Assembly: GCA_937872315.1 (NCBI GenBank)
Contig: CALMST010000213.1
Location: forward strand, 1-36,221
Reading direction: 5' to 3'
From: an uncultured Ignavibacteria bacterium
GTDB taxonomy: Bacteria; Bacteroidota; Ignavibacteria; Tepidaquicellales; Tepidaquicellaceae
Length of the DNA: 36,221 bases
Below the pieces are notes generated by a model. That model was not told the origin of the DNA and searched no databases. It saw only the letters and a list, made by a program, of their open reading frames with translations. The translations under genes were made by a program, and so were the position numbers. Of the stretch, positions 10,463 through 31,074 are shown in pieces (the stretch's first letter is position 1; each line of letters starts with the position of its first letter).

Positions 10463-12112
10463 TTAATATTGTGTAGCTATCAAAACTCTGAAACCTTCAA
10501 ACGGCTGTACAAATCTGCATATTCCATTAGTGCATTTAAGTCCGCCTCTTTCTGATCCGTAAGACACACCGAAAGTATTGGATTGATTCAATTTATAAGA
10601 GATCTCACCTGTAAACCAGCTGCTTTTTCCTGTTGGTTCATCTTCATTATTGGTGAATTCCGATGTTACAGTCAATACTAATGAAGGTGAACTGGAGAAA
10701 GTAAGTGAGTTATACTGATTCATAAAATTCTTATCACCTATATTAATTGAATTATTTGCCCATTGTGTTTCATTGATAAATGTAAGTGAATAAACATCCG
10801 TAAATGAATATCTGAATTCAAGCGGTATAGTTGTTGTCTTTATAATTTCAGAATTGGATGGATTGATCTGATTATATAAAACATTGTTCTGTAATGCAAT
10901 CGCAAGTTTTCCGTAAATTTTGTCTGTTGCATAATCTTCAGCCTCTAAATATAATTCCCAGAATGGTGAAAATGAATTGTCAAGATCAGGCAGCCAGCTG
11001 TCTCCTCTGTCAACTCTCTCATAAGAAATAACGGATGATGTATCAATGTCAGTATACTGATAATGTTTTGAAGCGATACTTCCGCTCAGATTAAAACTTA
11101 ATTTATCATTTGGCACATAAACAAAATCAAACTGTCCGCCTACCTCATCATTAAAATCAACTACATGCGGGTTTCTTGATGTGAGCACTGAATTGTTCTC
11201 TTTCTGTGCTGTAGGAGGATTCTGATAAGGAAGCATTCTTGAAGGTCGTGTATTGCTTCTGTTATCAGGTAAGGTTATATCAAATCTGTAATTCTTATAT
11301 TCAAGCGTCATACCCAGATTCCCGAAAGTATAGGCAAAGGATGAATAAAGTCCGTCCCCGTTTGCCGTACTGGCGTTATAAATTTCATTTGGTGATATGA
11401 CAGATGACTTGTAAGCGTAGGAAGTATAAAACTGCATACTCTTATAGTCAACATTGATAAAACCTTCAGATACATCAGAGTTTACATATGTTAAAAATCC
11501 TTCTTCAGGCAGAATACCGTTTGAATGAACATAATTCAGGCCAATGTTCAACGGCTTCAAAGGAGAAACTCTTAAAAAAGCATTTCTGAGTTTATAATTT
11601 TCAACTCTGTAAGGATCAAGATAATCCCGGTAATTTATATTTCCGCCAATGATCTGAGCTTTGATCTCAAGCGGGTTTTTGAATTTAAAAGTATTCTTGT
11701 AACCGATCCTTACCCCGTCAATTCCGGTGTCATATGCCAGAGCCCTGTCTTCAAAAGTATTCAATGACATTCCAAGTGAAATAGCTTCCCAGAAATCTCC
11801 CGCTCTAAGTGAAATACCTGATTCATGATCGTATTCAACAAATCGTTTTGCTATCCCCACAAAATTAACTCCATATTCTATTGAATCACTTATCTCATTT
11901 CTGAAACCAAAAGTAACTCCGTTAATTTTTAACCGGGCATCTGTCAGGTTTTCAAAATATTCTTTGGGATTTTTGATCGTTCCTGTGTATTGATATCCAT
12001 TGCCATATCTGAGAAGATTGCTTACAGCTGCTTCAACATTCAGATTTATCTGAGCTTTAACGGCAGTTGAAGTAATTAAAAGAAAAAATAAAACTGATAG
12101 TTTTTTAATCAT
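10463..12112 (-). CDS. DUF6029-like outer-membrane beta-barrel protein
   Basis: A 549-residue protein with a signal peptide of about 20 residues (cleavage after 'AVKAQ'). Most of the chain is amphipathic beta-strand sequence ending in Tyr ('FRVLIATQY'), consistent with an outer-membrane barrel. The N-terminal part ('NLLRYGNGYQY', 'ARLKINGVTFGFRNEISDS', 'LRAGDFWEAISLGMSLNTFED') resembles the DUF6029 family of Bacteroidota, which I recognise by pattern and genomic setting rather than by any catalytic residue. Neighbours are a TlpA-like thioredoxin upstream (12201-12722) and an Omp28-like lipoprotein downstream. These three are probably one functional group at the envelope; the substrate is unknown. 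Confidence 0.7.
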   Translation of the reverse strand: MIKKLSVLFFLLITSTAVKAQINLNVEAAVSNLLRYGNGYQYTGTIKNPKEYFENLTDARLKINGVTFGFRNEISDSIEYGVNFVGIAKRFVEYDHESGISLRAGDFWEAISLGMSLNTFEDRALAYDTGIDGVRIGYKNTFKFKNPLEIKAQIIGGNINYRDYLDPYRVENYKLRNAFLRVSPLKPLNIGLNYVHSNGILPEEGFLTYVNSDVSEGFINVDYKSMQFYTSYAYKSSVISPNEIYNASTANGDGLYSSFAYTFGNLGMTLEYKNYRFDITLPDNRSNTRPSRMLPYQNPPTAQKENNSVLTSRNPHVVDFNDEVGGQFDFVYVPNDKLSFNLSGSIASKHYQYTDIDTSSVISYERVDRGDSWLPDLDNSFSPFWELYLEAEDYATDKIYGKLAIALQNNVLYNQINPSNSEIIKTTTIPLEFRYSFTDVYSLTFINETQWANNSINIGDKNFMNQYNSLTFSSSPSLVLTVTSEFTNNEDEPTGKSSWFTGEISYKLNQSNTFGVSYGSERGGLKCTNGICRFVQPFEGFRVLIATQY

Positions 12113-12200: not shown

Positions 12201-12722
12201 TTACTTGGATTCATCTTTTATGTCCTGAGCATCATTTCCGCTGAGAGCATCTTCTATTTCTTTTTCAATTTTAACTTCATCACCGGTTATGTATCCCAGA
12301 TGTTTTGCAACAATGTTTTTGTTTTTATCAATTATCAGTGAATATGGAATTCCTACACCGCTGTAATTTTCAAATATTTTTTTGTCAAGATCAAAAATGA
12401 CAGGGAAAGTATATTTATTGGCATTTATGAAGGATTTTACCTTGGAAACGGATTTCTGATTATCCTGACTGATAGCAAGATATGTAAATCCCTGATCTTT
12501 ATATTTTTCATAAATAGGCTGCATTTTTTTCATCTCTTCTTTACAGGGTGAACACCAGGTTGCCCAAAATGATATCATTACCGGACCTTTTTCCAGTAAT
12601 TTACTTAGCACGATCTCATTACCATTCAGATCATCTTTTTCAATTTCATTAAAATACTGACCGAATGAAATTACAGGAGTTAATATTATGAATAATATTA
12701 TTGTTAAAAATGTCTTTTTCAA
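12201..12722 (-). CDS. TlpA-family periplasmic thioredoxin
   Basis: A 173-residue TlpA/ResA-like protein. An N-terminal signal peptide or anchor (residues 1-20, 'LTIILFIILTPVISFG') sends it to the periplasm. The active site is 'SFWATWCSPCKEEM' with C57 and C60, and the cis-Pro loop is 'GIPYSLIIDKNKNIV'. The insert between them ('YLAISQDNQKSVSKVKSFI') is typical of TlpA rather than thioredoxin. The start codon appears to be TTG (12720-12722), which gives the basic 'MKK' signal peptide start; no better ATG lies upstream. Such proteins reduce disulfides during cytochrome c maturation or in envelope proteins. Gene order with DUF6029-like and Omp28-like genes recurs in relatives as far as I know. 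Confidence 0.88.
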   Translation of the reverse strand: MKKTFLTIILFIILTPVISFGQYFNEIEKDDLNGNEIVLSKLLEKGPVMISFWATWCSPCKEEMKKMQPIYEKYKDQGFTYLAISQDNQKSVSKVKSFINANKYTFPVIFDLDKKIFENYSGVGIPYSLIIDKNKNIVAKHLGYITGDEVKIEKEIEDALSGNDAQDIKDESK

Positions 12723-12779
12723 TTTTGTTTTTGTTAAGATTAAAAAAAATAAAAATAAAACGGGAATATCCGGATTACT

Positions 12780-13814
12780 TTAAGAATTCATCAGAAGAAT
12801 TACAATTGCGGTAATAACTAAATTAGCTATACCAAGAGGAAGCATTACCTTCCATCCAAGATTCATCAGCTGGTCATATCTGAATCTCGGTATGGTCCAT
12901 CTGACCCAGATGAAGAACAGGACCATCAGAACAACTTTTGAAGCAAATGTCAGAACCTGTATGATACTTACCGCCATTGCCGGTAAGCCCATATCCTGCA
13001 GATAAGGAAATTGCCATCCGCCAAGATATAATGTAACTATCATTGATGATGAAACAATAACATTAGCATATTCTGCTAAAAAGAATAAAGCGAATTTCAT
13101 ACTGGAATATTCAGTATGGTATCCGCCGACAAGTTCCTGTTCGGCTTCAGGCAGATCAAACGGTGTTCTGTTTGTTTCAGCAAATGCAGATACAAGGAAT
13201 ATTATGAACCCAACTGGCTGAAGAAATATGTTCCATTTCCAACCGGCCTGGCTGCCTACAATTTTATCAAGCTCCAGTGTACCGTTCATTAATATAATTG
13301 CAATTACAGCTAAACCCATTGATAACTCATAGCTTATCATCTGTGCTGAAGCCCTTAAACCTCCAAGCAGTGAATACTTGTTGTTTGATGACCAGCCGCT
13401 TAATGTGACACCGTAAACCCCGAGTGATGTCATTGCAAGAAAATATAGTATGCCTATATTTACATTTGCTATCTGAAGATGAATTACCCTGTCACCTATT
13501 GTGATGGTATCACCAAATGGAATAACCGCAAATGTTGATAATGAAACTATGATTGAAATTGCCGGAGCTAAAGAGTGAATGAATTTATTGGCTTTTTCAG
13601 GAACTATATCTTCCTTCATTAAAAGCTTTACAGCATCAACAAGGGGTTGTAAAAGTCCCTGCGGACCTACTCTGTTTGGACCTAGTCTGTTCTGTATAAA
13701 TGCTGATACTCTTCTTTCAGCATAAACTGAGTATGCAACTGCCGTAAGTAAAACTGCAAGTACAAATCCAATTTTTGAGAGTGTTATTATTAATTCTGTA
13801 ACTGTTTCAGACAT
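12780..13814 (-). CDS. nuoH: NADH-quinone oxidoreductase subunit H (NuoH)
   Basis: A 344-residue polytopic subunit of complex I with about eight membrane helices. The signature loop 'ERRVSAFIQNRLGPNRVGPQ' (about residues 28-47) and the following 'LLQPLVDAVKLLMKEDIVP' line the quinone channel; 'AFAETNRTPFDLPEAEQELV' with its conserved acidic residues and 'GYHTEYSSMKF' are also intact. Length matches the family (325-350). NuoH couples quinone reduction to proton pumping and joins the peripheral and membrane arms. It stands alone: its neighbours are a TlpA gene and a VOC gene and no other nuo gene is in the window, so the rest of complex I is encoded elsewhere. Confidence 0.96.
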   Translation of the reverse strand: MSETVTELIITLSKIGFVLAVLLTAVAYSVYAERRVSAFIQNRLGPNRVGPQGLLQPLVDAVKLLMKEDIVPEKANKFIHSLAPAISIIVSLSTFAVIPFGDTITIGDRVIHLQIANVNIGILYFLAMTSLGVYGVTLSGWSSNNKYSLLGGLRASAQMISYELSMGLAVIAIILMNGTLELDKIVGSQAGWKWNIFLQPVGFIIFLVSAFAETNRTPFDLPEAEQELVGGYHTEYSSMKFALFFLAEYANVIVSSSMIVTLYLGGWQFPYLQDMGLPAMAVSIIQVLTFASKVVLMVLFFIWVRWTIPRFRYDQLMNLGWKVMLPLGIANLVITAIVILLMNS

Positions 13815-13987
13815 TAAAATTCAAATTGTGAGTAGGTAAAATCCGAAAAATAATCGTAAATTTAAATGCAAATTTTAAATTTTTTTAGTAACCTCTGAAC
13901 TTTTCTGAAACAGAATGAACGGCTTTTTAAAATTCAAAGTGGTATTTATCAGACTTTAACATACTTAAAAACCTTTAACTTACAGAC

Positions 13988-14347
13988 TTAATTTTTCATT
14001 CTTCTGTTTGATATCTGAAACTTATTCCCTTCAGGATCGCTTCCGTCACAAAAGTTTAATTCTCCGAAAGTCACGATCTTTCCCATTTTATGACCTCTGC
14101 TTTCTATCAATGCCTTGGCTTTTGCTACATCTTTTACTCCGAATGCAATTTTTACTCCGGTTTCCTTTTTTATATTGCCGGTTTTACCGATTTTATGTAA
14201 TCCTATATTGCAGCTTCCGCAGTCCAATTCCGTCCATTCAGGATCTATTTTATCTGTAATTTTAAATCCGAGAATATCCCGGTAAAATTCGGCAACTCCC
14301 GGAACGTCATTTACAAATAAGATAATGGTTGTGATCTTTCCAATCAT
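13988..14347 (-). CDS. VOC-family (glyoxalase/bleomycin resistance-like) protein
   Basis: A 119-residue single vicinal-oxygen-chelate module pair. It starts 'GKITTIILFVNDVPGVAEFYRDILGF', the standard beta-alpha-beta entry, contains 'CGSCNIGLHKIG' with a possible metal-binding His, and ends with 'GSDPEGNKFQISNRR', where the Glu of 'PEGN' is the usual second ligand. VOC proteins include glyoxalase I, dioxygenases, fosfomycin/bleomycin resistance proteins and many of unknown substrate; none can be chosen here. It lies 174 bp upstream of nuoH on the same strand and 77 bp downstream of msrB; gaps are long enough for separate promoters. Confidence 0.85.
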   Translation of the reverse strand: MIGKITTIILFVNDVPGVAEFYRDILGFKITDKIDPEWTELDCGSCNIGLHKIGKTGNIKKETGVKIAFGVKDVAKAKALIESRGHKMGKIVTFGELNFCDGSDPEGNKFQISNRRMKN

Positions 14348-14424
14348 ATATTATAAATTATTTTAATAAATCTTAAACTAATCTGAAAAATCACATATAT
14401 AAATAACTAACATAACTCACAATA

Positions 14425-14970
14425 TTACTTCTCTTCAAACTTCATCGCTGCCGAATTCATACAATACCTCTGACCTGTCGGAGGCGGTCCGTCATCAAAC
14501 ACATGTCCGAGATGAGCGCCGCATCTTCTGCATAATACTTCATCCCTGCTCATTCCGTGAGAATTATCAGCGCCAATGATAATGTTTGCTTCATTTACAG
14601 GAGCATAAAAACTCGGCCATCCGGTTCCTGATTCGAATTTGGTTTCAGAACTGTACAGCTCAAGACCGCATCCTATGCAATAATAAATACCTGATTTATG
14701 ATTGTCATTATATTGATTACTAAATGGACGCTCAGTTCCTTTTTCTCTGGTTACATAATACTGAATCTCTGTAAGCTGACTCTTCCATTCTTCATCTGTT
14801 TTTACAACTTCAAATTTTGGAGTATCATTTTTTTCTTTAGTTTCAAGTGTGTCTTTTGCTTTGCTGTTGAACTCTGATGAATTGTCGGTTAAGGTTTGTT
14901 TTGTACATGACAGAAATGCGGATAACATTAAAATTATTGCAAGTATATTCATTTTTGATAAAAATTTCAT
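14425..14970 (-). CDS. msrB: Peptide-methionine (R)-S-oxide reductase MsrB, lipoprotein form
   Basis: A 181-residue MsrB. Residues 1-21 form a lipoprotein signal ending 'AFLSC', C22 being the likely lipidated Cys, so the enzyme is expected at the periplasmic face of a membrane. After a charged linker the SelR domain (about 58-178) shows the zinc pairs C98/C101 ('YYCIGCG') and C147/C150 ('VLCRRCG'), the substrate loop '[11 protein letters not shown]', '[10 protein letters not shown]', and the catalytic C170 in '[10 protein letters not shown]'. It reduces methionine-R-sulfoxide in oxidised proteins. The gene is divergent from the peroxiredoxin at 15535 across a 564-bp spacer, both serving oxidant defence. 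Confidence 0.95.
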
Positions 14971-15534
14971 ATTTAATTTAATTTCTAAATGGGTTTTGAA
15001 ATATTAACGAATTATGTCATTCGATGGTTCATATAATGTTTGCCTGTGAACTTGTGTCTATATAAAAACAAACAATGTTTATAAAAAAAATTTATAATAA
15101 ACTTCAATAATTTTCCGGTTTAATTTATGCTTTATTTCTATTCTGTTATTTATTATTTATTTCTTTTATTCTTAAAATTAAAAGCAATTTCCTGTCTTTT
15201 CCAAAACCAGTTTTCTAAAATAATCTTTTTCGGATTATAGAAATACCAGTCCGGCATTCTTTTTATAGATCAAAAGTAAATCCGGCAAAGAAAGATCTGC
15301 TTCCTGTCATATATTATAAATTTGTTTATTTCTTTCTGCAATTTATTACAGGCGGTTTATATTGATAATCAATTTAAAAATATTGATTTAAAGTTATAAT
15401 AATATTTTTATACAACTTTTTTAATTTAATTTATACACTACTTAACAATTTCAAATAAGTATTCTAATAATTACAGTGTAAAAATCACATAAAAGAATTA
15501 TTTTACAAAATTAACAAATTAATATAAATATATC
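14971..15534. other. 564-bp AT-rich divergent intergenic region (msrB / peroxiredoxin)
   Basis: No convincing gene is seen. The stretch should carry both divergent promoters. TAAATTTG at 15317-15324 fits the Bacteroidota -7 consensus TAnnTTTG on the plus strand but has no clear TTG box about 20 bp upstream. ATTGAT-a-ATCAAT (15361-15373) is a perfect 6-bp-arm palindrome, followed by a third ATTGAT at 15382-15387. TTATAATAAT at 15394-15403 matches the left half of a PerR-type box only. Confidence 0.5.
15361..15373. promoter_or_regulatory. Palindrome upstream of the peroxiredoxin gene
   Basis: ATTGAT-a-ATCAAT is a perfect 6-bp-arm inverted repeat 160 bp before the peroxiredoxin start, with another ATTGAT half-site 8 bp further on (15382-15387). 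It could bind a regulator of the oxidant genes; AT-richness makes chance quite possible. Confidence 0.3.
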
Positions 15535-16173
15535 ATGGCTGCTTTAAGATTAGGAGACACTGCTCCGAATTTCAGTGCAAAAACTACAGAAGGTGACATC
15601 ATGTTTCATGAATGGCTTGGAGATAGCTGGGGAGTTTTATTCTCCCATCCCGCGGACTTTACACCTGTATGTACTACCGAGCTTGGAATGGTTGCTAAAT
15701 TAAAAGATGAATTTGACAAACGTAATGTAAAGGTCATAGGTCTTAGTGTTGATCCGCTTACGGATCACACAGAATGGATCAAAGACATTAATGAAACCCA
15801 GAATGTAAATATGAATTTTCCGATGATAGCCGATGATGATAAATATGTATCATCTCTTTATGATATGATTCATCCGAATGCGGATGATAAACTTACTGTT
15901 CGTTCGGTATTCATAATAGGACCGGATAAAAAGGTAAAACTAACTCTTACATATCCAGCTTCCACGGGAAGAAATTTTCATGAGATCCTTAGAGCTATTG
16001 ATTCACTTCAGCTTACAGCAAATCACAGTGTGGCTACACCAGTCAACTGGAATGACGGTGATGACTGTATCATAGTAAATTCTATCAATGACGAAGATGC
16101 AGCTAAAAAATTCCCGAAAGGATTTAAGAAAATAAAACCTTATCTAAGAATTACTCCTCAGCCAAATAAATAG
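15535..16173 (+). CDS. 1-Cys peroxiredoxin (Prx6 subfamily)
   Basis: A 212-residue AhpC/TSA-family peroxidase of the Prx6 type. The peroxidatic Cys is C46 in 'SHPADFTPVCTTE', the 'P-x-x-x-T-x-x-C' motif; the conserved 'RSVFIIGPDKKVKLTLTYP' and the Prx6-type C-terminal extension ('DGDDCIIVNSI ... KGFKKIKPYLRITPQP') are present. The second Cys in 'DDCIIV' may act in resolution, as in some archaeal relatives. It reduces hydrogen peroxide and alkyl hydroperoxides in the cytoplasm. Monocistronic: a strong hairpin terminator follows (16194-16238). It faces msrB across a long regulatory spacer. Confidence 0.95.
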   Translation: MAALRLGDTAPNFSAKTTEGDIMFHEWLGDSWGVLFSHPADFTPVCTTELGMVAKLKDEFDKRNVKVIGLSVDPLTDHTEWIKDINETQNVNMNFPMIADDDKYVSSLYDMIHPNADDKLTVRSVFIIGPDKKVKLTLTYPASTGRNFHEILRAIDSLQLTANHSVATPVNWNDGDDCIIVNSINDEDAAKKFPKGFKKIKPYLRITPQPNK

Positions 16174-16383: not shown

Positions 16384-18447
16384 ATGAAACATATTTACAG
16401 TATCCTAATTGTAATATTTTCATTTTATTGTTCACCGTTATTTTCTCAGACACAGGGAGTGAAAATAGCCAGCCCATCAGTTGACGGTTCATTGAATGGT
16501 ACAGAGTGGAGCGGCGCAAAAGTATTTACGAACTTTCACAAGTTCATACCTAAATCCGACGACAATTCATTCGACAGTACCATAGTCTATATTAAACAAA
16601 CCAGGGACGCCCTTTATTTCGGATTCGATTATTTTCCAAAAGGAAAAATAATCTCCAAATCACTTGTAAGAGACAGAAGCACAGAAGATGAAAACGAATT
16701 TTTTATTGTGCTCGATCTCGAAAACAAAAAACAGAACGGCTATATGTTTGCATTCAGTTTTCTTAATAATCAGAGAGATGCAATTATTTATAATCAGAGG
16801 AATCAGTCTTCAGAATGGGACTGGGTCTGGGATGTTAAATCCACTATCATTTCCGAACCAACCGCTACCAAACCCGGACATATTCAGACTGAAGTAAAGA
16901 TCCCCGTTGACAGACTTCAGAATAAAAATCAGAAAACCATCGGCGTGGATGTTCAGATGTTTTCTTACAGTCCGGACGGAACATACTACTATTATTCTCT
17001 GATTCCAGACTCTGAACTTCTTTCTCTTAAAAATACCTATCAGCTTGATCTTACAACGCCTTTTGATGAAAAGCTGAATCTTGATGTGGATGTGATCCCT
17101 TTTGCAGTTGGTCAGACTTTCAATAATGACAGAGATACTTTTCAGGTAGGAGGAGATCTTTATTTAAGTATGGATAAACACACTCTTAAAGCTACTTACA
17201 ATCCGGATGATTTTACTCTCGAAGCTGATCCTTTCAGATTTTCACTTTACTCAAGACCAATATACCTGCAGGAAAAAAGACCTTTCTTCAGTAAAGACCT
17301 TGACCTGTTCAGAACTCCTATAAATTTATTTTATACAAGGGCTATCGAAGATATTAAATACGGATTTAATTATTCGTACAGAAGTGATATTCTCAAAGCA
17401 GGAGCGGTACTTGTAAATGATATAAATGAGTTCGGAGAAAAAAGAAACTTTTTCATAGCAAGACCTAAAATGAGTTTTCAGGATATTAATATCGGAACAA
17501 TGCTTATATTCTCCAATGTCGGAGAATCTGACTACAAAGAGACTGTAATGAGTCTGGACGGTTCATACCGGTTTCCTGACAATCCGGTCAGAGTGCAGGC
17601 GCAATATGCAAACAGTATTTCCAGTTTAGGAAACAAATCGCGTGAAGGTAATGCTTATAATCTTTATGCTTATTATCAGTATGACAATAACGGAGGACCT
17701 TATGCAGATGTAAGCTATAACAGGGTAAATCCCGGATTCTTTGCTTCCACGTATTTTAATTCTCAGACTCAGTTTCCGAACAATTATGATCAGGTGAATA
17801 TATCAGGCGGTTATAATTTTGTTTATGACAGAAAATATTTCAGTGATATGAACTTTAATGCCGGTTATTTTAAGTTGAGTACTCTCGAACAGGAAGGACC
17901 TTTCCCTTCAGGATTCAATTTTCAGAAATATTTATACTTCAGCTCTAATTTTAAAGTATCTGAATTCCTCAGGTTCAATCAGTATTTCGAATATAATAAG
18001 CCTAATTCGATTGATGCAAACGGTGAACTTCTTACTTATACCAATACTGCGCAGGATTATAATGCAAGTATTTTCCTGGGTACTAATTATTTGAATATTG
18101 GTTATTATTTCGGACCATACTTCGGTTCCTTTATCCAGAATCCTTATGTAAGCGGAAATGTATTCTTGTTTGACAGACTTGCGCTCAATGGAAGTCTGAC
18201 ATTTGTGAATCTTGATGATTCAAAAAGAACAATTCTTAATACAGGACTTAACTGGAAGATCATGAATAAATTGTTCCTGAGATCCTACTACCAGCGGGAC
18301 AATCTTTCCAAACAAGCGCTGTGGAATTCAATTCTTCAGTATGAATTCTTTGCCGGAAGTAATGCATATCTTGTGGTGAATATGAACGGAGATCATTTAC
18401 AATATATAGCTAAGTATTTTAAAATCGGATATGACTTCACATTTTAA
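16384..18447 (+). CDS. DUF5916 outer-membrane protein with CBM9-like N-terminal domain
   Basis: A 687-residue exported protein: signal peptide 1-22 ('YCSPLFSQ'). Residues about 25-215 look like a carbohydrate-binding family 9-like beta-sandwich ('KIASPSVDGSLNGTEWSGA', 'DALYFGFDYFP', 'NGYMFAFSFLNNQRD', 'EVKIPVDRLQ'). The rest (about 225-687) is a long series of amphipathic strands ('YLQEKRPFFSKDLDLF', the 'R-P-F-F-x-E/K' element known from DUF5916) and ends 'KIGYDFTF' with a terminal Phe, as in outer-membrane barrels. Family members are widespread in Bacteroidota and unstudied; a sugar-related or surface role is only suggested by the N-terminal domain. It has its own upstream region after the peroxiredoxin terminator. 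Confidence 0.82.
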   Translation: MKHIYSILIVIFSFYCSPLFSQTQGVKIASPSVDGSLNGTEWSGAKVFTNFHKFIPKSDDNSFDSTIVYIKQTRDALYFGFDYFPKGKIISKSLVRDRSTEDENEFFIVLDLENKKQNGYMFAFSFLNNQRDAIIYNQRNQSSEWDWVWDVKSTIISEPTATKPGHIQTEVKIPVDRLQNKNQKTIGVDVQMFSYSPDGTYYYYSLIPDSELLSLKNTYQLDLTTPFDEKLNLDVDVIPFAVGQTFNNDRDTFQVGGDLYLSMDKHTLKATYNPDDFTLEADPFRFSLYSRPIYLQEKRPFFSKDLDLFRTPINLFYTRAIEDIKYGFNYSYRSDILKAGAVLVNDINEFGEKRNFFIARPKMSFQDINIGTMLIFSNVGESDYKETVMSLDGSYRFPDNPVRVQAQYANSISSLGNKSREGNAYNLYAYYQYDNNGGPYADVSYNRVNPGFFASTYFNSQTQFPNNYDQVNISGGYNFVYDRKYFSDMNFNAGYFKLSTLEQEGPFPSGFNFQKYLYFSSNFKVSEFLRFNQYFEYNKPNSIDANGELLTYTNTAQDYNASIFLGTNYLNIGYYFGPYFGSFIQNPYVSGNVFLFDRLALNGSLTFVNLDDSKRTILNTGLNWKIMNKLFLRSYYQRDNLSKQALWNSILQYEFFAGSNAYLVVNMNGDHLQYIAKYFKIGYDFTF

Positions 18448-18638: not shown

Positions 18639-19319
18639 ATGAAATCCCTTTTAGCAATATTTATAATATTATTTATATCGTCAAACGTATTTCCACAGTC
18701 TGACGGGACTAACAAAAATTCCTCACAGTTTAAGATCGCCCGTTTAAAATATTCAGGCGGCGGTGACTGGTATAATGATCCTTCGGCGGAAATTAACATG
18801 ATGGAATATCTGAAAAAGAATACGACAATTGATGTCGATGAACCTGTTTTTTATTCGGTAAGTGTTTCTTCTGATGATATTTTTAATTATCCGTTCATTC
18901 TCATTACAGGACACGGAAATATAGAATTCTCTTCGGATGAAGTAGCAAGGCTCAGGAAGTACTGTGAATCCGGAGGTTTCTTATATGCTGATGATGATTA
19001 CGGAATGAATGACTCTTTCAGGCGGGAGATCAGGAAAGTATTTCCGGATGAGGAACTAAAAGAACTCCCGTTCACACACAAAATATATAATTCACAATAC
19101 AGTTTTCCAAACGGACTTCCGAAAATCCACGAACATGATCAGAAACCCGCGCAGGGGTTTGGTATTTATTCGGGAGGTCGCCTGTGTGTATTCTATACTT
19201 ACGAAACTAATATTTCCGACGGCTGGGCTGATACAAAAGAGCATCAGGATCCTCCCGGGAAAAGAGAGGAAGCTTTTAAAATGGGGACAAATATAATTGT
19301 TTATTCTCTTATGAATTAA
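18639..19319 (+). CDS. Exported DUF4159 domain protein
   Basis: A 226-residue protein with a signal peptide (1-20, 'FISSNVFPQ') and one DUF4159 domain: 'FKIARLKYSGGGDWYNDPSA' at the front, 'FILITGHGNIEFSSDEVARL', 'YCESGGFLYADDDYGMND', and 'HKIYNSQYSFPNGLPKIHEHD' then 'RLCVFYTYETNISDGW'. This fold is like the glutamine-amidotransferase/ThuA-type class I GATase-like domain; the family is found alone or at the end of von Willebrand/BatA-type membrane proteins and has no assigned activity. It heads a tight plus-strand unit: the lipoprotein gene begins 10 bp after its stop. Confidence 0.85.
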   Translation: MKSLLAIFIILFISSNVFPQSDGTNKNSSQFKIARLKYSGGGDWYNDPSAEINMMEYLKKNTTIDVDEPVFYSVSVSSDDIFNYPFILITGHGNIEFSSDEVARLRKYCESGGFLYADDDYGMNDSFRREIRKVFPDEELKELPFTHKIYNSQYSFPNGLPKIHEHDQKPAQGFGIYSGGRLCVFYTYETNISDGWADTKEHQDPPGKREEAFKMGTNIIVYSLMN

Positions 19320-19329
19320 ATAATTTGTT

Positions 19330-19992
19330 ATGAATAAAGTTAAGATGCTTTCTTTCTTTGTTCTGTTAATGTTTCTTTCTTCATGCGGAAAATCGGAACA
19401 GAAACAAATTCGGAATACTTACGATAAGAACTTTTCCAATTCAGGTAAAACAAAAGATACCTGTGACTCGCCTGATGCCAATATAGACTGCAGCTTCCGT
19501 GACATGCCTTCGGATCTGACTAACATTATGACCATTTCTGAAGCCGGAGAACCCGGAGAAAAAGTAATTATTTATGGAAATGTATTTCATTCTGATAGTA
19601 CAACTAAATATAGCGGTGTGATAATTTATGCTTACCATACTGATTCAATGGGCTTTTATTCAAAAAAAGGAGATGAAACAGGTGTACAGAAATGGCAGGG
19701 ACATCTTTTCGGCTGGTGCATCACAGACAGCAACGGGTATTATGAAATTCATACCGTAAGACCCGGCAGATATCCATCCAATGAATATCCGGCTCATATC
19801 CATCCTGTGTTAAAAATACCGGGTGAAGAAAAACCTTTTTATATAAATGATTTTGTTTTTAAAGATGATTCGCTTGTTGATGAAAAATATTTATCCTCAC
19901 TTCAGTATCCGGGCGGTAAAGGTGTGGTCGAATTAAAAAGATCCGCTGACGGGATATTGACGGGACAAAGAAACATTGTACTTCCCGGTTAA
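19330..19992 (+). CDS. Intradiol ring-cleavage dioxygenase-like lipoprotein
   Basis: A 220-residue probable lipoprotein: signal 1-18 ending 'MFLSSC', C19 lipidated. Residues about 75-175 resemble the catalytic domain of intradiol dioxygenases: 'KVIIYGNVFHSD', 'GVIIYAYHTDSMGFYSKKGD', 'GWCITDSNGYYEIHTVRPGRYPSNEYPAHIHPVLK'. The four expected Fe(III) ligands can be placed at Y110, Y148, H156 and H158. The known enzymes (catechol 1,2- and protocatechuate 3,4-dioxygenase) are cytoplasmic; exported relatives exist in Bacteroidota and fungi without clear substrates. No aromatic pathway genes are nearby, so a degradative role is uncertain. Its stop codon shares its last A with the ATG of the next gene (TTAATG). 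Confidence 0.8.
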   Translation: MNKVKMLSFFVLLMFLSSCGKSEQKQIRNTYDKNFSNSGKTKDTCDSPDANIDCSFRDMPSDLTNIMTISEAGEPGEKVIIYGNVFHSDSTTKYSGVIIYAYHTDSMGFYSKKGDETGVQKWQGHLFGWCITDSNGYYEIHTVRPGRYPSNEYPAHIHPVLKIPGEEKPFYINDFVFKDDSLVDEKYLSSLQYPGGKGVVELKRSADGILTGQRNIVLPG

Positions 19993-20351
19993 TGTACAAT
20001 AATGTTAAAGTGAAAATAAAAATTGTTAAATATTACAAAACTATTTATTCGGATCCTCTGATTTTAAACCCCGGGGATGAAGTCATACCGGGCGAAGAAG
20101 AAAAGGAAGAAAAATGGTCTGGCTGGATCTTATGTGAATTCAATGGAAAAAAAGGCTGGGTCCCGAAACAAATAATTAAATCCAAGGAGGACAATAGCGG
20201 AATAATCACTGAGTATTATTCAGCAAAAGAACTTGATGTTTCAGAGGGTGAAATTTTAAATTACATTAATGAATTAAACGGTTGGCTCTTACTTGAAAAC
20301 AGTAAAGGCGAAACAGGATGGGTGCCGAAGGAAAACACTGAACCGGCATGA
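19992..20351 (+). CDS. Small protein with two SH3-like repeats
   Basis: A 119-residue protein made of two bacterial SH3-like modules, each ending in the same signature: 'SGWILCEFNGKKGWVPKQII' (about residues 40-60) and 'NGWLLLENSKGETGWVPKEN' (about 97-116). 'W-x-x-x-x-x-G-x-x-G-W-V-P' is the variant-SH3 hallmark, used for binding peptides or cell-wall material. No signal peptide is seen at the chosen ATG, so it is probably cytoplasmic; it would be odd for an SH3b protein otherwise linked to an exported enzyme. The ATG overlaps the preceding stop by one base, a sign of coupled translation. Confidence 0.8.
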   Translation: MYNNVKVKIKIVKYYKTIYSDPLILNPGDEVIPGEEEKEEKWSGWILCEFNGKKGWVPKQIIKSKEDNSGIITEYYSAKELDVSEGEILNYINELNGWLLLENSKGETGWVPKENTEPA

Positions 20352-20438: not shown

Positions 20439-21224
20439 TTATCTGAGCTTAAAATCATTTTGAAGTATTTGTTTGTATTTCTCCCTGTCAGGACATTTAT
20501 ATGTTGAATCAACAAGTTCGTATCCCTTCTGTACCTCTCCGAGAGAATAATAATCAGCAACTATAGCAGCAAGTACCGTTTTAACTGATCCAGCTCCCGT
20601 ATTAAAAGTATCTTCACCGTCCTCTTCACATTTGAATCCCTGATCAGTCATTTCTTTAAGTTCGCTTAAAAATATATCCAGCTCTTTTCTTATCAAACTC
20701 TTATAGTCAGATGTTGATTCTATCAGTTTTCCGTTTTCATATTTATATACCATAGTCGGAAATCTTGTTTCCGCATAATTGGTAAATGCATAAGCAAACA
20801 TATCATTCGAACATTCAAGCTCCAGCTTTCCGTTATTGTCAAGATCCTTTGCTTCATAAAAGCCATTACCAAGAAAAAGCGAATCAGTAAGAATAAATTT
20901 TTCTTTTAAAAACTTTCCTGTATATAATGTAAAACAGCAATGGGCGCCGCCGCTGTATGCTTCAATAAAAATTTCTTTCTTACCGTCATTATTGAGGTCG
21001 TATTCTTTTACGCCTGTTACATATTGTTCGTAATTTGCTTTGAATATACGGTCTCCATCATAAAAAACTTTTAAATCAGTCGAATAAGTATTTGTATCAT
21101 ATTTAGTTGTGATCCTGTAATCACCAGATCTGAAATCTATATTATCAAACTGAGCTTTTACAGGCATTACCTTAATGCAAAAGAGAATACAAATTATAAA
21201 AAACATTTTTCTTTGAAAAATCAT
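20439..21224 (-). CDS. Exported protein with integrin-like (VCBS/FG-GAP-type) calcium-binding repeats
   Basis: A 261-residue protein with a signal peptide (1-24, ending 'VMPVKAQ'). Two short D-x-(D/N)-x-(D/N)-G-x-x-E elements are present: 'YDLNNDGKKEIFIEAYSGG' and 'KDLDNNGKLELECSND', the calcium-loop pattern of VCBS/FG-GAP blades, the first followed by a Cys pair in 'AHCCFTLY'. The C-terminal 100 residues look helical. No enzyme motif is seen. The gene is convergent with the SH3 gene and 55 bp downstream of the protease-TPR gene on the same strand, so it may be co-expressed with that gene. Function unknown. Confidence 0.7.
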   Translation of the reverse strand: MIFQRKMFFIICILFCIKVMPVKAQFDNIDFRSGDYRITTKYDTNTYSTDLKVFYDGDRIFKANYEQYVTGVKEYDLNNDGKKEIFIEAYSGGAHCCFTLYTGKFLKEKFILTDSLFLGNGFYEAKDLDNNGKLELECSNDMFAYAFTNYAETRFPTMVYKYENGKLIESTSDYKSLIRKELDIFLSELKEMTDQGFKCEEDGEDTFNTGAGSVKTVLAAIVADYYSLGEVQKGYELVDSTYKCPDREKYKQILQNDFKLR

Positions 21225-21279
21225 ATATCTGTTATTAATTTATTGAACATTGAGCAGCGGCGGATTATGCTCTCAAAGA

Positions 21280-22884
21280 TTATTCATCCATTTCCTGTAT
21301 TGCCTTATAAAGTTCAACTTTCCTCTCATTTCCGTTAGGTGAATAATCATATGTATTTTTCAATTCCAGATAAGCTAATATGGCATTGAATTTTTCTCCT
21401 TCTTTTACGGCTATCATTCCCATTAAATAATGAATGTCAGAATTATAAGGAGCATAACCGGTAAGGGCAAGTGAATTTTCATAAGCTGTCTGCAGATATT
21501 TTTTTGCAGCAGCCGGCTTATTATATTTCTCAAAATATATTTTACCAAGCTGTATGTATGCATCGGTATAAGCAGAATCTTTTTTTATCAAATATTTATA
21601 TTCTCTGACAGCTTTTTTGTAATCATTCATTTCAGCATAAATACCGGCAAGCTGATAATAGATAAAATACTGTGTACTGTCTTCGGAAAGCATTTTGTCA
21701 TAAAATTGTATCGCCTTGCTGTAATCTTTTGAAGTTGAATAGGCAGAAGCGAGATTCGAAGAAAGCAGATTGAGCAGGCTGTCCGAATCAAATCTTATCC
21801 GGATGTCTTTATAAAGATCCTCAGCTTTCTGAAAATTATCCGTTATAACATAGAGATCAAGCAATTCCTGATATACAATAAAAGTATCGGGCTTTAGCTC
21901 AAGACATTTCTGATAATAATTTTCTGCTTTAGTGAAATTTACCTTATTAAGTGAATCCATTGTAATAGTATAAGCATCAACAATTTTCATGGAATCCTTT
22001 TGCTTGGTATAATACCAGTTATACTGAAGTTCCGATTTTATTCCGTATGCAAGATTGTAAGTAGAATTAAAAAGACTTTCTTCTTTTTTCATCTTAAACT
22101 CCTGATTGTCCGCAAAATCACTTGATTCTACTATGTCACTCACTTTCTTAAATCCGTTTATTGCTACAGCAAAATTAAGATTGCCGTAACCGATAAAAGT
22201 ATAAGTAGTTATTCCGATCACTTCCCCCTTCTTGTTGAACAGCGCGCCGCCGCTGTTTCCGGGAGAGATAGCGGCCGTGATCTGAAGAACTTTCTCAAAA
22301 GTCTTTTCTTTGGATGAATATGTGAGAGGATCCTGAAGAGTTACTTTTTCATTTTCCCTGACAGCTGCTATTATACCTGATGAAATGGTGTATTCATATC
22401 CGAGCGGACTGCCTATTGCATAAACTTCCTGTCCGGCTCTCACTTCATCCGAATTACCAAGGGTTACGACAGGAAATTTTTTTTCTTTTCCATCCAGTAT
22501 CTTGATCACTGCAAAATCAGACGATTCATCCGCATAGATAAGATCAGCATGATAAAAATTTCCGTCACTGGTTTTTACAAGAAGACTGTCAATATTTTCG
22601 ACCACATGATAATTGGTGCCGATAAGTCCGTCTTCCTGAAATATAAACCCGCTGCCGTTTAAAACTGTAGTATCAATATATGAATCGGATGCATACGAAT
22701 AATAATCTTTTTCATTAAGCCAAATTGAAATTAATGCAGGTTTAAACAGATCAATGATCTGCTCGGCATTTAGATCATCAATTCCGATATCAGATTCAAA
22801 ATCAGATTTAAATGTTCGATTCTGCGCATAAGCACTGACACTGAAAAAAACTGTCAGTATGAAACATAATATGAATTTTTTCAA
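21280..22884 (-). CDS. Exported trypsin-like (S1C/HtrA-type) serine protease with C-terminal TPRs
   Basis: A 534-residue protein: signal peptide 1-20 ('FSVSAYA'). Residues about 45-250 are a chymotrypsin-fold protease of the DegP/HtrA type with the full triad H93 ('GTNYHVVENI'), D123 ('ESSDFAVIKI') and S211 ('ISPGNSGGALFN'). No PDZ domain is visible; instead residues about 310-534 hold tetratricopeptide repeats ('AENYYQKCLELKPDT', 'AIQFYDKMLSEDS', 'AVREYKYLIKKDSAYTDAYIQLG', 'AAKKYLQTAYENS'). It should cut or refold proteins in the periplasm, with the TPRs choosing the partner, the latter being inference. A heptanucleotide tandem repeat lies 90-146 bp before its start codon. Confidence 0.9.
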   Translation of the reverse strand: MKKFILCFILTVFFSVSAYAQNRTFKSDFESDIGIDDLNAEQIIDLFKPALISIWLNEKDYYSYASDSYIDTTVLNGSGFIFQEDGLIGTNYHVVENIDSLLVKTSDGNFYHADLIYADESSDFAVIKILDGKEKKFPVVTLGNSDEVRAGQEVYAIGSPLGYEYTISSGIIAAVRENEKVTLQDPLTYSSKEKTFEKVLQITAAISPGNSGGALFNKKGEVIGITTYTFIGYGNLNFAVAINGFKKVSDIVESSDFADNQEFKMKKEESLFNSTYNLAYGIKSELQYNWYYTKQKDSMKIVDAYTITMDSLNKVNFTKAENYYQKCLELKPDTFIVYQELLDLYVITDNFQKAEDLYKDIRIRFDSDSLLNLLSSNLASAYSTSKDYSKAIQFYDKMLSEDSTQYFIYYQLAGIYAEMNDYKKAVREYKYLIKKDSAYTDAYIQLGKIYFEKYNKPAAAKKYLQTAYENSLALTGYAPYNSDIHYLMGMIAVKEGEKFNAILAYLELKNTYDYSPNGNERKVELYKAIQEMDE

Positions 22885-27450: not shown

Positions 27451-30400
27451 TCAGGAGCAACCGCTGGTCTCGCCGCAGGTTATACACTTTAGACATGTAC
27501 CGTTTCTTACCATTGTCGGACTGCCGCAGTTAGTGCAAATATCACCTGTGTAACCTTTCAGCTTGGCTTCCTTTATTTTTTCCATAGTAAAAGTTGTCGT
27601 CTCGGTGGTTTTTATATTTGACAATTTTATTCTTGATTCACCTTCGGTAACAGATGATTTTCCTGTACCCGGTTTTTTAACCGGCGTTTCTTCAATTATC
27701 CTTTCACTGAAAATTTCCTCTTCATCAAAGTCAGTATCGTTATCAAGTTTGGAAAGTGCATCTATCGGAGAGCGCTGTATCTCTTCATTGTTCTCAATAT
27801 GAGACAGATCGTTTCTTCCAAGATATGTTACTGCAAGTTCCCTGAAAATATAATCAATTATGGAAGTGCTCATTTTAATATTCGGATTACCAATCACTAT
27901 ACCGTTTGGTTCAAATCGTGTATAAACAAACGCATCGACGAATTCTTCAAGCGGAACTCCGTGCTGTAAACCAAGAGATATAGCTATCGCAAAACAGTTC
28001 ATCAGACTTCTGAATGCTGCTCCTTCTCTGTGCATGTCAATAAAGATCTCACCAAGCTGACCGTTCTCGTATTCGCCTGTTCTGAGATAAACCGAGTGTG
28101 TTCCGATCTTGGCTTTCTGTGTATATCCTTTTCTTCTGAAAGGAAGTTTTCTTCTCTTTGCAATGTATCTGTGAATGATCCTTTCAGCTACTTTTACAAT
28201 GTCGTTGGTTCTTGCCGTCGCCGCAGTGATGTCATCGTTTGCATTGTAATCTATGTCTTCATCATCGGTAACACTGTTGAGAGGCTGCGATAATTTCGAT
28301 CCGTCTCTGTAAAGAGCATTGGCTTTTACGCCGAGACGCCATGAGGTCATGTAAGCGCTTTTCATATCTTCAATGGTGGCGTGATTCGGTAGATTTATCG
28401 TTTTGGAGATAGCGCCGGATATGAAAGGCTGAGCAGCCGCCATTATATTTATATGGGCATCAGCATGAATGTAACGTGTTCCTTTTTTACCGCATTTGTT
28501 AGCGCAGTCAAAAATGGCATAATGTTCTTTCTTAAGATAAGGAGCTCCTTCAATTGTCATTGTACCGCAGACATAGTCATTGGCTTCTTCGATCTGTTCT
28601 TTTGTAAATCCGAGTTCTTTGAGTACATTGAAATTCGGATCGTCGAGCTGCTCTTCGGAAAAGCCCAGGGCATTCTTGCAAAAAGCTGAACCGAGGGTCC
28701 ATTTGTTAAATGCAAAATTTATGTCAAATACAGATGGGAGGGATTTTTCAATTTTTGAAAGAACATCTTTTGTAAATTCCTTTTCTGAAAGTGTATTTGC
28801 ATTTATGTGCGGACAGCCGATCAGCGATCCATGCCCAACTGTGTATTTAATTATTTCATCAATTTCCTTTTTTGAATGACCGAGGTTTTTTAAAGCAGGT
28901 GGTACGGAAGCATTTATAATTTTAAAGTATCCGCCGCCGGCAAGTTTCTTAAATTTCACCAGCGCAAAATCAGGCTCGACACCGGTAGTATCACAATCCA
29001 TAAGCAGTCCGATTGTACCCGTAGGGGCAATTACGGTCACCTGTGCATTTCTGAATCCGTACTTTTCTCCCATTTCAAGAGCAGTGTCAGAATCTTTTTT
29101 AGCAGCTTCAAGAAGATCATCCTTACAGTATTTACCGTTGATTCCCATCGGAGTAATTCTAAGTCCTTCATATTCATTTGCTGTTGCATTATAGGCAGCG
29201 CGTTTGTGATTTCTTATTACACGGAGCATATTATCTCTGTTCTCTTTGAATCTCTGGAATGGTCCGAGTTCCTTCGACATCTCCGCAGAAGCGGAATAAG
29301 AAGTCATGTGAAGTATAGAAGTAAGAGCTCCTGTAATAGAAAGCGCTTCGGGAGAATCATAAGGAATTCCCTGCACCATCAGAAGAGCTCCGAGATTTGC
29401 ATAACCAAGTCCGAGAGTTCTGTATTCATAAGAGAGCTTTGCAATGTTCCTGCTCGGAAACTGCGCCATCAGCACGCTGATCTCCAGCACCATTGTCCAC
29501 AGACGTGATGCATGTCTGTATTTTGCTATCTCAAATTTATTTTTTTCAAAATTAAAAAACTTTATAAGATTTAGTGAAGCGAGGTTACATGCAGTATCAT
29601 CGAGGAACATATATTCCGAACACGGATTTGAAGCTTTGATCTCGCCTCCCTGCGGACAGGTGTGCCAGTCATTTATCGTATCATGAAACTGTATTCCCGG
29701 ATCAGCCGAAGACCATGCCGAATAAGCAATCTGCTCCCAGAGATCACGGGCTTTTAATGTTTTACATGGCTTTGGAGATCTCTTTTCCGCGGCAGATCTT
29801 TTTAATTCAGTTCTCCAGTAGAGATTCCAGTCACCGTCATCCAAAACGGATTCCATAAATTCATTTGTTGCGCGGACACTGTTGTTTGAATTCTGCCCGG
29901 ATACAGTAACATATGCTTCCGAATTCCAGTCAGTATTGTATTCCGGAAATTCAATTTCCTTGAATCCGAGTTTGGCAAGCTGAATTACTCTTTCAATATA
30001 ATTTTCGGGTGTGTTAACCTTTCTTGCTTCGTGAATTGCCTGTGCAAGCTGTTTATTGGTCTTTCTGTCAAAACCGTCATTCTCCGGATGAGAATTGTAA
30101 CAGGCTTTGATAATTTTATTGAGATGGTAATTCAATATTTTTGAACCCGCAACCAGTGCTGCTACTTTCTGCTCTTCGACCACTTTCCAGTTTACATATT
30201 CTTCAATATCAGGATGATCAAGATCAAGTGTAACCATCTTTGCAGCGCGTCTTGTAGTACCGCCTGATTTAATGGCTCCTGCACTTCTGTCACCTATCTT
30301 AAGGAATGACATCAGACCTGACGATCTTCCGCCGCCGCTTAAGGATTCATTAGCTCCGCGGACGTTTGAAAAATTTGATCCTGTACCGGAACCGTATTTG

Positions 30401-31074
30401 AACAGTCTCGCCTCACGAACCCATAGGTCCATTATTCCGCCTTCATTTACAAGATCATCGGAAAGTGACTGGATGAAACACGCATGTGGCTGCGGATGTG
30501 TGTATGCATCTTTTGAAGTTGAAAGTTTTTCTGTATCAGGATCAATATAATAGTGCCCCTGCGACGGACCTGTAATGCCGTAAGCCCAGTTGAGTCCGGT
30601 ATTGAACCATTGCGGAGAATTAGGAGCGGCAAACTGCATTGCCAGCATGTAACAAAGCTCTTCGTAAAAGTTTTTTGCATCTTCCTCTTTTTCAAAATAG
30701 TTATGTTTCCAGCCCCAGTATGTCCAGCATCCTGCAAGGCGCGTAAATACCTGAGTGGAATCTTTCTCTGAAGTATATCTTTCTTCCTCTACTAATTTGG
30801 AAAGTCGTTCTTCATCTGGTTCGTTTCGCTGCAGCCAGTCCGGTACACCTTCTTCCTGTGCTTTCTTTAGATAAACCGGAATACCCGCTTTTCGAAAATA
30901 CTTCTGCGCCAGAATGTCGGTCGCTACCTGCGACCAGTGACCCGGAACCTTTATGTCATTCATCTCAAATACTATGGAACCATCAGGGTTTCTAATTACA
31001 GATGACCGTGTATCAAACTCGATCTGTTCAAAGGCTGTCCTGCCTTTACTTACAAAGACTCTGTTAATTTTCAT
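27451..31074 (-). CDS. nrdJ: Adenosylcobalamin-dependent (class II) ribonucleoside-diphosphate reductase
   Basis: A 1207-residue class II ribonucleotide reductase of the long form. Redox Cys C199 ('HACFIQSL'), radical Cys C485 and E487 in 'NPCSEY', and the partner C496 in '[11 protein letters not shown]' can all be placed; the 11-residue spacing of the last two is that of NrdJ. '[20 protein letters not shown]' and 'IAPTGTIG' are typical. After about residue 1100 comes a linker and a C-terminal Cys cluster ('[20 protein letters not shown]' then 'CGETSGCS'), which serves as zinc ribbon and thiol shuttle. It makes deoxyribonucleotides with B12 instead of a metal-oxygen radical, so it works with or without oxygen. 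No NrdAB or NrdD is in the window. Own terminator downstream. Confidence 0.96.

Follow-up and report, generated by a model that had tools for sequence, protein, structure and literature searches.

An intradiol-fold lipoprotein with a predicted iron site and a replaced Arg/Gln pair is encoded behind DUF4159 in one genus of Ignavibacteria

A three-gene array in the window

The window, by which we mean the whole 36,221-nucleotide stretch analysed, is a single contig from a genome of 4.56 Mb in 386 contigs, which is 96% complete. Three genes follow one another on its forward strand. The first (18639..19319) encodes P0001, a DUF4159 protein of 226 aa that begins with a signal-peptide-like stretch, and the second (19330..19992) encodes P0002, a 220-aa lipoprotein with the intradiol dioxygenase fold, which was identified by Pfam, a fold model and alignment and carries the lipobox LSSC19. 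The third (19992..20351) encodes P0003, a double-SH3 protein of 119 aa whose start is likely the GTG at 20010. Signal peptides and the lipobox were judged by eye in all three proteins. The initial annotation had described these open reading frames in the same terms, and Pfam matches to DUF4159, Dioxygenase_C and SH3_9 confirm its three descriptions.

P0001 is a full-length DUF4159 protein (PF13709), its residues 32-224 aligning with positions 1-202 of the 202-position profile at 2e-63. It also matches a distant solved relative, 4i66 (Hoch_4089), at 5.3e-8, a structure that was deposited as uncharacterized. A GATase-like (class I glutamine amidotransferase-like) fold had been suggested for it; the DUF4159 model, built from three near-identical rows, reached a pLDDT of 48.8 and was too poor for a fold search, and no paper naming the family was found in the literature searched. 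P0003 matches SH3_9 at 8.6e-11 (42 bits against a cut-off of 30) in two stretches, which correspond to two SH3 repeats. No signal peptide was seen when P0003 was inspected by eye, and the SH3 protein is therefore probably located in a different compartment.

The three genes had been described as tightly spaced, with a 10-bp gap and a 1-bp overlap. The 10-bp gap between the DUF4159 and lipoprotein genes stands, but the overlap between the lipoprotein and SH3 genes depends on the choice of start codon and is doubtful, because the SH3 orthologues of both congeners start with MKIKII, which corresponds to the window's GTG at 20010 and leaves a 17-bp gap. Across the three congeneric genomes the first gap measures 10 (window), 10 and 23 bp, and the second spacing -1 or 17 (window), 19 and 18 bp. 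We rejected the overlap as proof of translational coupling, since it is absent from the congeners.

Within the genus, dN/dS is 0.02-0.03 for DUF4159, 0.07-0.11 for the lipoprotein and 0.13-0.14 for the SH3 gene, values that are rough because dS (0.8-1.9) is near saturation. The ratio for the DUF4159 protein lies two to six times below that of the lipoprotein. Low ratios in all three indicate genuine genes, and their combination with high dS indicates that the order of the trio has been maintained for some time inside the genus. A defence-gene reading was rejected, as none of the three proteins had a PADLOC match, and so was a phage origin, as a tblastn search of a phage collection with P0002 gave no match.

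Distribution of the array

We examined the occurrence of the three genes in 29 genomes of the window's family: 28 contain DUF4159, 10 the lipoprotein and seven the SH3 protein. All three are adjacent in the window's genus only, in each of its three genomes, so the array is not the peculiarity of one genome. Outside the genus the lipoprotein gene lies beside DUF4159 in none of the seven other family genomes that carry it. The trio proteins are encoded on three separate contigs in G012, G024 and G025, and in G012 the SH3 match falls inside a frame of more than 500 aa. Eighteen family genomes have DUF4159 without the lipoprotein. The lipoprotein rows used here were checked individually, as the single-linkage cluster had also taken in unrelated long proteins.

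A scan of public records, with a query alignment built from nine of the ten family homologues (all but the 416-aa frame of L051), returned 33 lipoprotein loci. Most come from records named Bacteroidota, Bacteroidetes or Ignavibacteria; others include one from Chthoniobacterales (Verrucomicrobiota) and one from a further bacterium. Genes for DUF4159 and the SH3 protein adjoin the lipoprotein gene in two of the 33 loci, both from the window's genus. Neither gene was found within at most 6 kb on either side in any of the 31 loci outside the genus, five of which are contigs of the family genomes and one of which (L098) includes no more than 73 bases of upstream sequence. These counts do not support the view of the trio as a general functional unit, and a reading as a conserved module was rejected, since the three genes never occur together outside the genus in the loci examined. 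As far as seen, the trio is a genus-level array and not a widely conserved machine.

Genomic neighborhood of DUF4159

Upstream of the trio the window encodes an outer-membrane-type protein (P0004, 687 aa; 16384..18447, forward strand), for which export and a barrel were read from the sequence and which has no Pfam match, a peroxiredoxin named from its sequence (15535..16173, forward strand), and a SelR/MsrB methionine sulfoxide reductase (14425..14970, reverse strand). Neighborhoods of this kind recur among 23 DUF4159 loci: an outer-membrane-type protein is encoded upstream in eight and a peroxiredoxin upstream in seven, MsrB is nearby in seven, and the lipoprotein adjoins DUF4159 in three. 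In one further genus, two genomes (L060, L063) have an MsrB relative as the next gene after DUF4159. Overall, DUF4159 is more commonly set among redox-repair genes. Single representatives had HisA with PorZ, an AraC regulator, a PAS histidine kinase or MsrB beside or downstream of DUF4159; with neighbors this varied, no constant partner was seen among the representatives scanned.

In the window, the redox-repair cluster as a whole spans 12201-16173 and consists of an AhpC/TSA-type protein, MsrB and the peroxiredoxin (the last by its sequence). On the other side of the trio, on the reverse strand (20439-22884), a protein with a sub-threshold FG-GAP match adjoins an HtrA-type protease that ends in TPR repeats; in G011 the two are again found close to DUF4159, separated from each other by one gene.

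Fold, candidate iron ligands and probable export of the lipoprotein

P0002 matches Dioxygenase_C (PF00775) at 1.1e-12, with 48.2 bits against a curated cut-off of 27.3. Its closest solved relative by sequence profile is the protocatechuate 3,4-dioxygenase beta chain (5.3e-16). A model built from 28 of 34 sequences has a mean pLDDT of 87.0, with values above 90 for the domain from residue 51 onward, and Foldseek gives an E-value of 1.8e-12. The closest structure to the model is SACTE_2871 (4ilt; Z 16.1, rmsd 2.7, 143 aligned residues), followed as the next structural family by protocatechuate dioxygenase (Z 14.6); catechol dioxygenases also match. Among the 50 structure matches listed, intradiol entries score Z 11.7 to 16.1, against 7.0 for the best other fold.

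The candidate ligands Y110, Y148, H156 and H158 had been proposed from the sequence; their numbering is correct, as is that of the lipobox Cys19. In a 49-row alignment, from which the secreted paralogues L147, L148 and P0013 were set aside to leave 46 rows, the four ligands are invariant (46/46, window's row included) and the lipobox Cys is aligned in 38 of the 46. Since the intradiol fold is combined with four invariant Tyr/Tyr/His/His residues, we consider it very probable that the lipoprotein holds Fe(III) by standard ligands in the cell envelope. The lipobox suggests that it is probably exported and lipid-anchored, in keeping with the earlier placement of a dioxygenase-like lipoprotein outside the cytoplasm. 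On the tree P0002 groups with public Ignavibacteria records.

Two solved systems resemble it most. SACTE_2871 (4ilt/4ilv), a secreted Streptomyces dioxygenase, shares with P0002 the short intradiol fold and the extracytoplasmic place at 18-21% identity, but it carries a carbohydrate-binding fusion where P0002 has a lipid anchor. The protocatechuate 3,4-dioxygenase beta chain (2pcd, 1eo2) has the Tyr/Tyr/His/His ligands in common with P0002. Protocatechuate 3,4-dioxygenase is a cytoplasmic catabolic enzyme.

Replacement of the second-shell residues

Canonical intradiol dioxygenases have two second-shell residues, Arg457 and Gln477, that act on and activate the substrate; Arg457 stands just before the P-A-H-I-H motif and Gln477 on the following strand. 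We fixed the position of Arg457 by comparing solved R457S and wild-type chains, which differ directly before PAHIH. Where protocatechuate 3,4-dioxygenase has Arg457 and Gln477, the window's lipoprotein has Tyr153 and Asp174 in the family alignment; a single-sequence alignment sets a gap instead of Y153 opposite Arg457, with no Arg either way. Position 153 is never Arg in the 46 rows (N in 20, F in 15, others in the rest), and position 174 is never Gln (D in 27, E in 16, A in two, G in one). An arginine at position 214, present in 39 of the 46 rows, is a candidate to occupy the site of Arg457. The collection from the public scan is biased at position 153, where one of the two patterns used admitted only F, Y or N ahead of P(A/Q)HIH; position 174 is free of that bias. 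Whole-genome searches alone supplied 12 of the 46 rows, and these also lack Arg at 153, although the query for some of them was itself built from public-scan loci.

All three secreted paralogues among the 49 aligned rows keep both Arg and Gln. One of them, P0013, is encoded by the window's own genome, is exported and has the same Pfam domain (Dioxygenase_C) as P0002, from which it differs in its intact Arg and Gln (RATHIH, SQF) and its type IX (Por) secretion tail. This second intradiol dioxygenase lies on contig C27 (L058:7674-8648, reverse strand), and proteins with P0013-like motifs occur as L147 in G011 and L148 in G024. No paper on Arg457 or R457S in intradiol or protocatechuate dioxygenases was found in the literature searched.

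The initial annotation had called the lipoprotein probably an active enzyme. Its ligand argument is borne out in all 46 rows, but the equivalents of Arg457 and Gln477 are absent from all 46. These results correct a tempting annotation as an intradiol dioxygenase of aromatic degradation, as the ligands are strictly kept while both substrate-activating residues are missing from all sequences examined. A position away from aromatic catabolic genes had also been noted, and the genome (96% complete) has no match to muconate cycloisomerase (TIGR02534); PcaB (TIGR02426) gave two matches there, both below the cut-off. The results for these two families argue against the lipoprotein feeding a catabolic route in this genome.

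Regulatory genes near lipoprotein relatives

In a sister family of the same order, eight of ten lipoprotein loci have the same order on the same strand, namely an ECF sigma factor gene followed by a zf-HC2/FecR anti-sigma gene and the lipoprotein gene. These eight loci (L137-L144) represent all eight close sister-family homologues; the Pfam names for the sigma/anti-sigma row rest on L138, whose anti-sigma protein has a long charged C-terminal tail. The divergent copies L145 and L146 are without such neighbors. The anti-sigma gene occurs in 14 of 15 sister-family genomes; the lipoprotein gene adjoins it in eight and is absent beside it in six, one of these six on a contig that ends after about 500 bp. 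The usual third gene of FecI/FecR systems encodes a TonB receptor. In the sister family the third gene of the ECF sigma/FecR-type operon encodes instead the intradiol-fold lipoprotein, and the window is without any sigma/anti-sigma pair.

A different kind of regulator is found in the public-scan loci, 14 of 32 scored having a LytTR regulator or a LytS-type kinase gene within four genes upstream. By offset, LytTR/histidine-kinase genes occupy 12/46 positions at -1, 8/45 at -2 and 2/44 at -3, with one each at -4, -5, -6, +5 and +6 (47 scored loci), and none of the downstream positions from +1 to +4 (0/45, 0/43, 0/40 and 0/38). L100, with regulator genes at -5 and -6, is outside the 14; L092, where the ORF finder missed the lipoprotein, is outside the offset counts and has LytTR and kinase genes upstream. 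Several of the LytTR loci are close kin of one another. In the Mucilaginibacter loci L105, L106 and L111 a membrane-type LytTR gene is divergent from the lipoprotein gene, and a DoxX gene (by Pfam on one locus) lies downstream.

On a tree that left out L112 and L145-L148, the sigma-linked rows form one clade, and the sister-family arrangement possibly arose in a single event; LytTR-kinase rows need three changes and membrane-LytTR rows two. None of the 11 rows of the window's subclade (the genus, other Ignavibacteria and Flavobacterium) has a regulator beside the gene, so that a signalling link for P0002 is imported from more distant relatives. The regulator link recurs in the lipoprotein family, though outside the window's subclade. 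In the literature searched we found no paper linking LytTR with intradiol proteins, nor one linking an anti-sigma factor with intradiol proteins of Bacteroidetes. The linked membrane regulators offer a genetic lead to what the lipoproteins respond to.

Possible function

The reading we prefer, at about even odds (roughly 0.5), is that the lipoprotein is a ferric protein of the envelope with altered or lost ring-cleavage chemistry, connected with envelope signalling in its relatives and placed next to DUF4159 in this genus. The DUF4159 gene would be an old resident of the family's chromosomes, directly behind which, in the genus ancestor, the lipoprotein gene and the small SH3 gene would have come to lie; given gaps of 10-23 bp, the trio is probably one transcript. 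The lipoprotein belongs to a mainly Bacteroidota and Ignavibacteria family that has the intradiol fold, very probably holds Fe(III) in the envelope, and has the second-shell pair replaced throughout, mostly by Asn or Phe and an acidic residue. Replacement of the Arg457/Gln477 pair suggests a different substrate or poor cleavage: the protein may cleave some other catecholic envelope compound, probably uncharged or cationic, with the metal doing the chemistry, or may cleave poorly. Judged by these residues, anionic catechols such as protocatechuate are unlikely as the preferred substrate; more probable alternatives are a catechol that is bulky, neutral or cationic, or a complete lack of turnover. 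A role in an envelope or redox stress response, rather than in growth on aromatics, is suggested by homologues that adjoin ECF sigma/FecR-type anti-sigma or LytTR genes, and a stress or sensing role is further favored by the peroxide and methionine-sulfoxide repair genes present here. The SH3 and DUF4159 proteins would be co-expressed neighbors of the lipoprotein and not its subunits; a three-part complex seems improbable because inspection by eye found no export signal in the SH3 protein and because dN/dS is lower for DUF4159 than for the lipoprotein.

That both second-shell residues are gone while the ligands are strictly kept could also point to a protein that has given up catalysis and serves in the envelope to bind Fe(III), a ferric catecholate or a quinone, reporting to, or induced by, a neighboring membrane signalling system. 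The sigma/anti-sigma and LytTR/histidine-kinase genes of relatives fit this, but four strictly retained ligands are just as expected of an enzyme and the window's subclade has no adjacent regulator, and we regard the idea as tentative, well short of an even chance. An ordinary, active catechol dioxygenase of the secreted type that merely sits downstream of a core gene, with no special chemistry, would agree with the Pfam and fold matches and with the known secreted enzymes of Streptomyces (4ilt) and spider mites, the latter with measured iron and activity (PMC9167512). Arg and Gln are present in the genome's own secreted paralogue, yet both are absent from all 46 rows, which makes this account quite unlikely. 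That an active exported dioxygenase works together with the DUF4159 and SH3 proteins as one unit is very unlikely: persistence of the array in all three genus genomes with gaps below 25 bp, despite a dS of 0.8-1.9, speaks for it, but the trio never occurs together outside the genus in the loci examined, 18 family genomes hold DUF4159 without the lipoprotein, three have the genes on separate contigs, the SH3 protein is without an export signal by eye, and dN/dS is unequal among the three genes.

A bolder form of our preferred reading, that of a ferric envelope protein, would make these Bacteroidota and Ignavibacteria lipoproteins ferric-catechol or quinone sensors, or stress enzymes, that work through their iron centre with ECF sigma/anti-sigma and LytTR, transmembrane regulators of two unrelated kinds; the window's genus would have rewired its copy to a DUF4159 locus near peroxide-repair genes. 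We hold this full scheme to be unlikely. Should the iron centre indeed sense or clear envelope catechols or quinones, the intradiol fold would be put to an unusual use. The trio itself is of modest interest; the family-wide loss of the pair and the signalling neighborhoods are the noteworthy part.

Other genes in the window

Further genes were observed on both sides of the array. A DUF6029 protein of 549 aa is encoded at 10463-12112 on the reverse strand, and NADH dehydrogenase subunit H was read by eye at 12780-13814. A class II ribonucleotide reductase of 1207 aa (27451-31074, reverse strand) has at residues 296-367 a weak match to a YebC/TACO1 N-terminal-like domain (1.9e-5, below its cut-off). 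Finally, one protein encoded at 31485-33584 on the reverse strand joins a cytochrome c-type region to TPR repeats.
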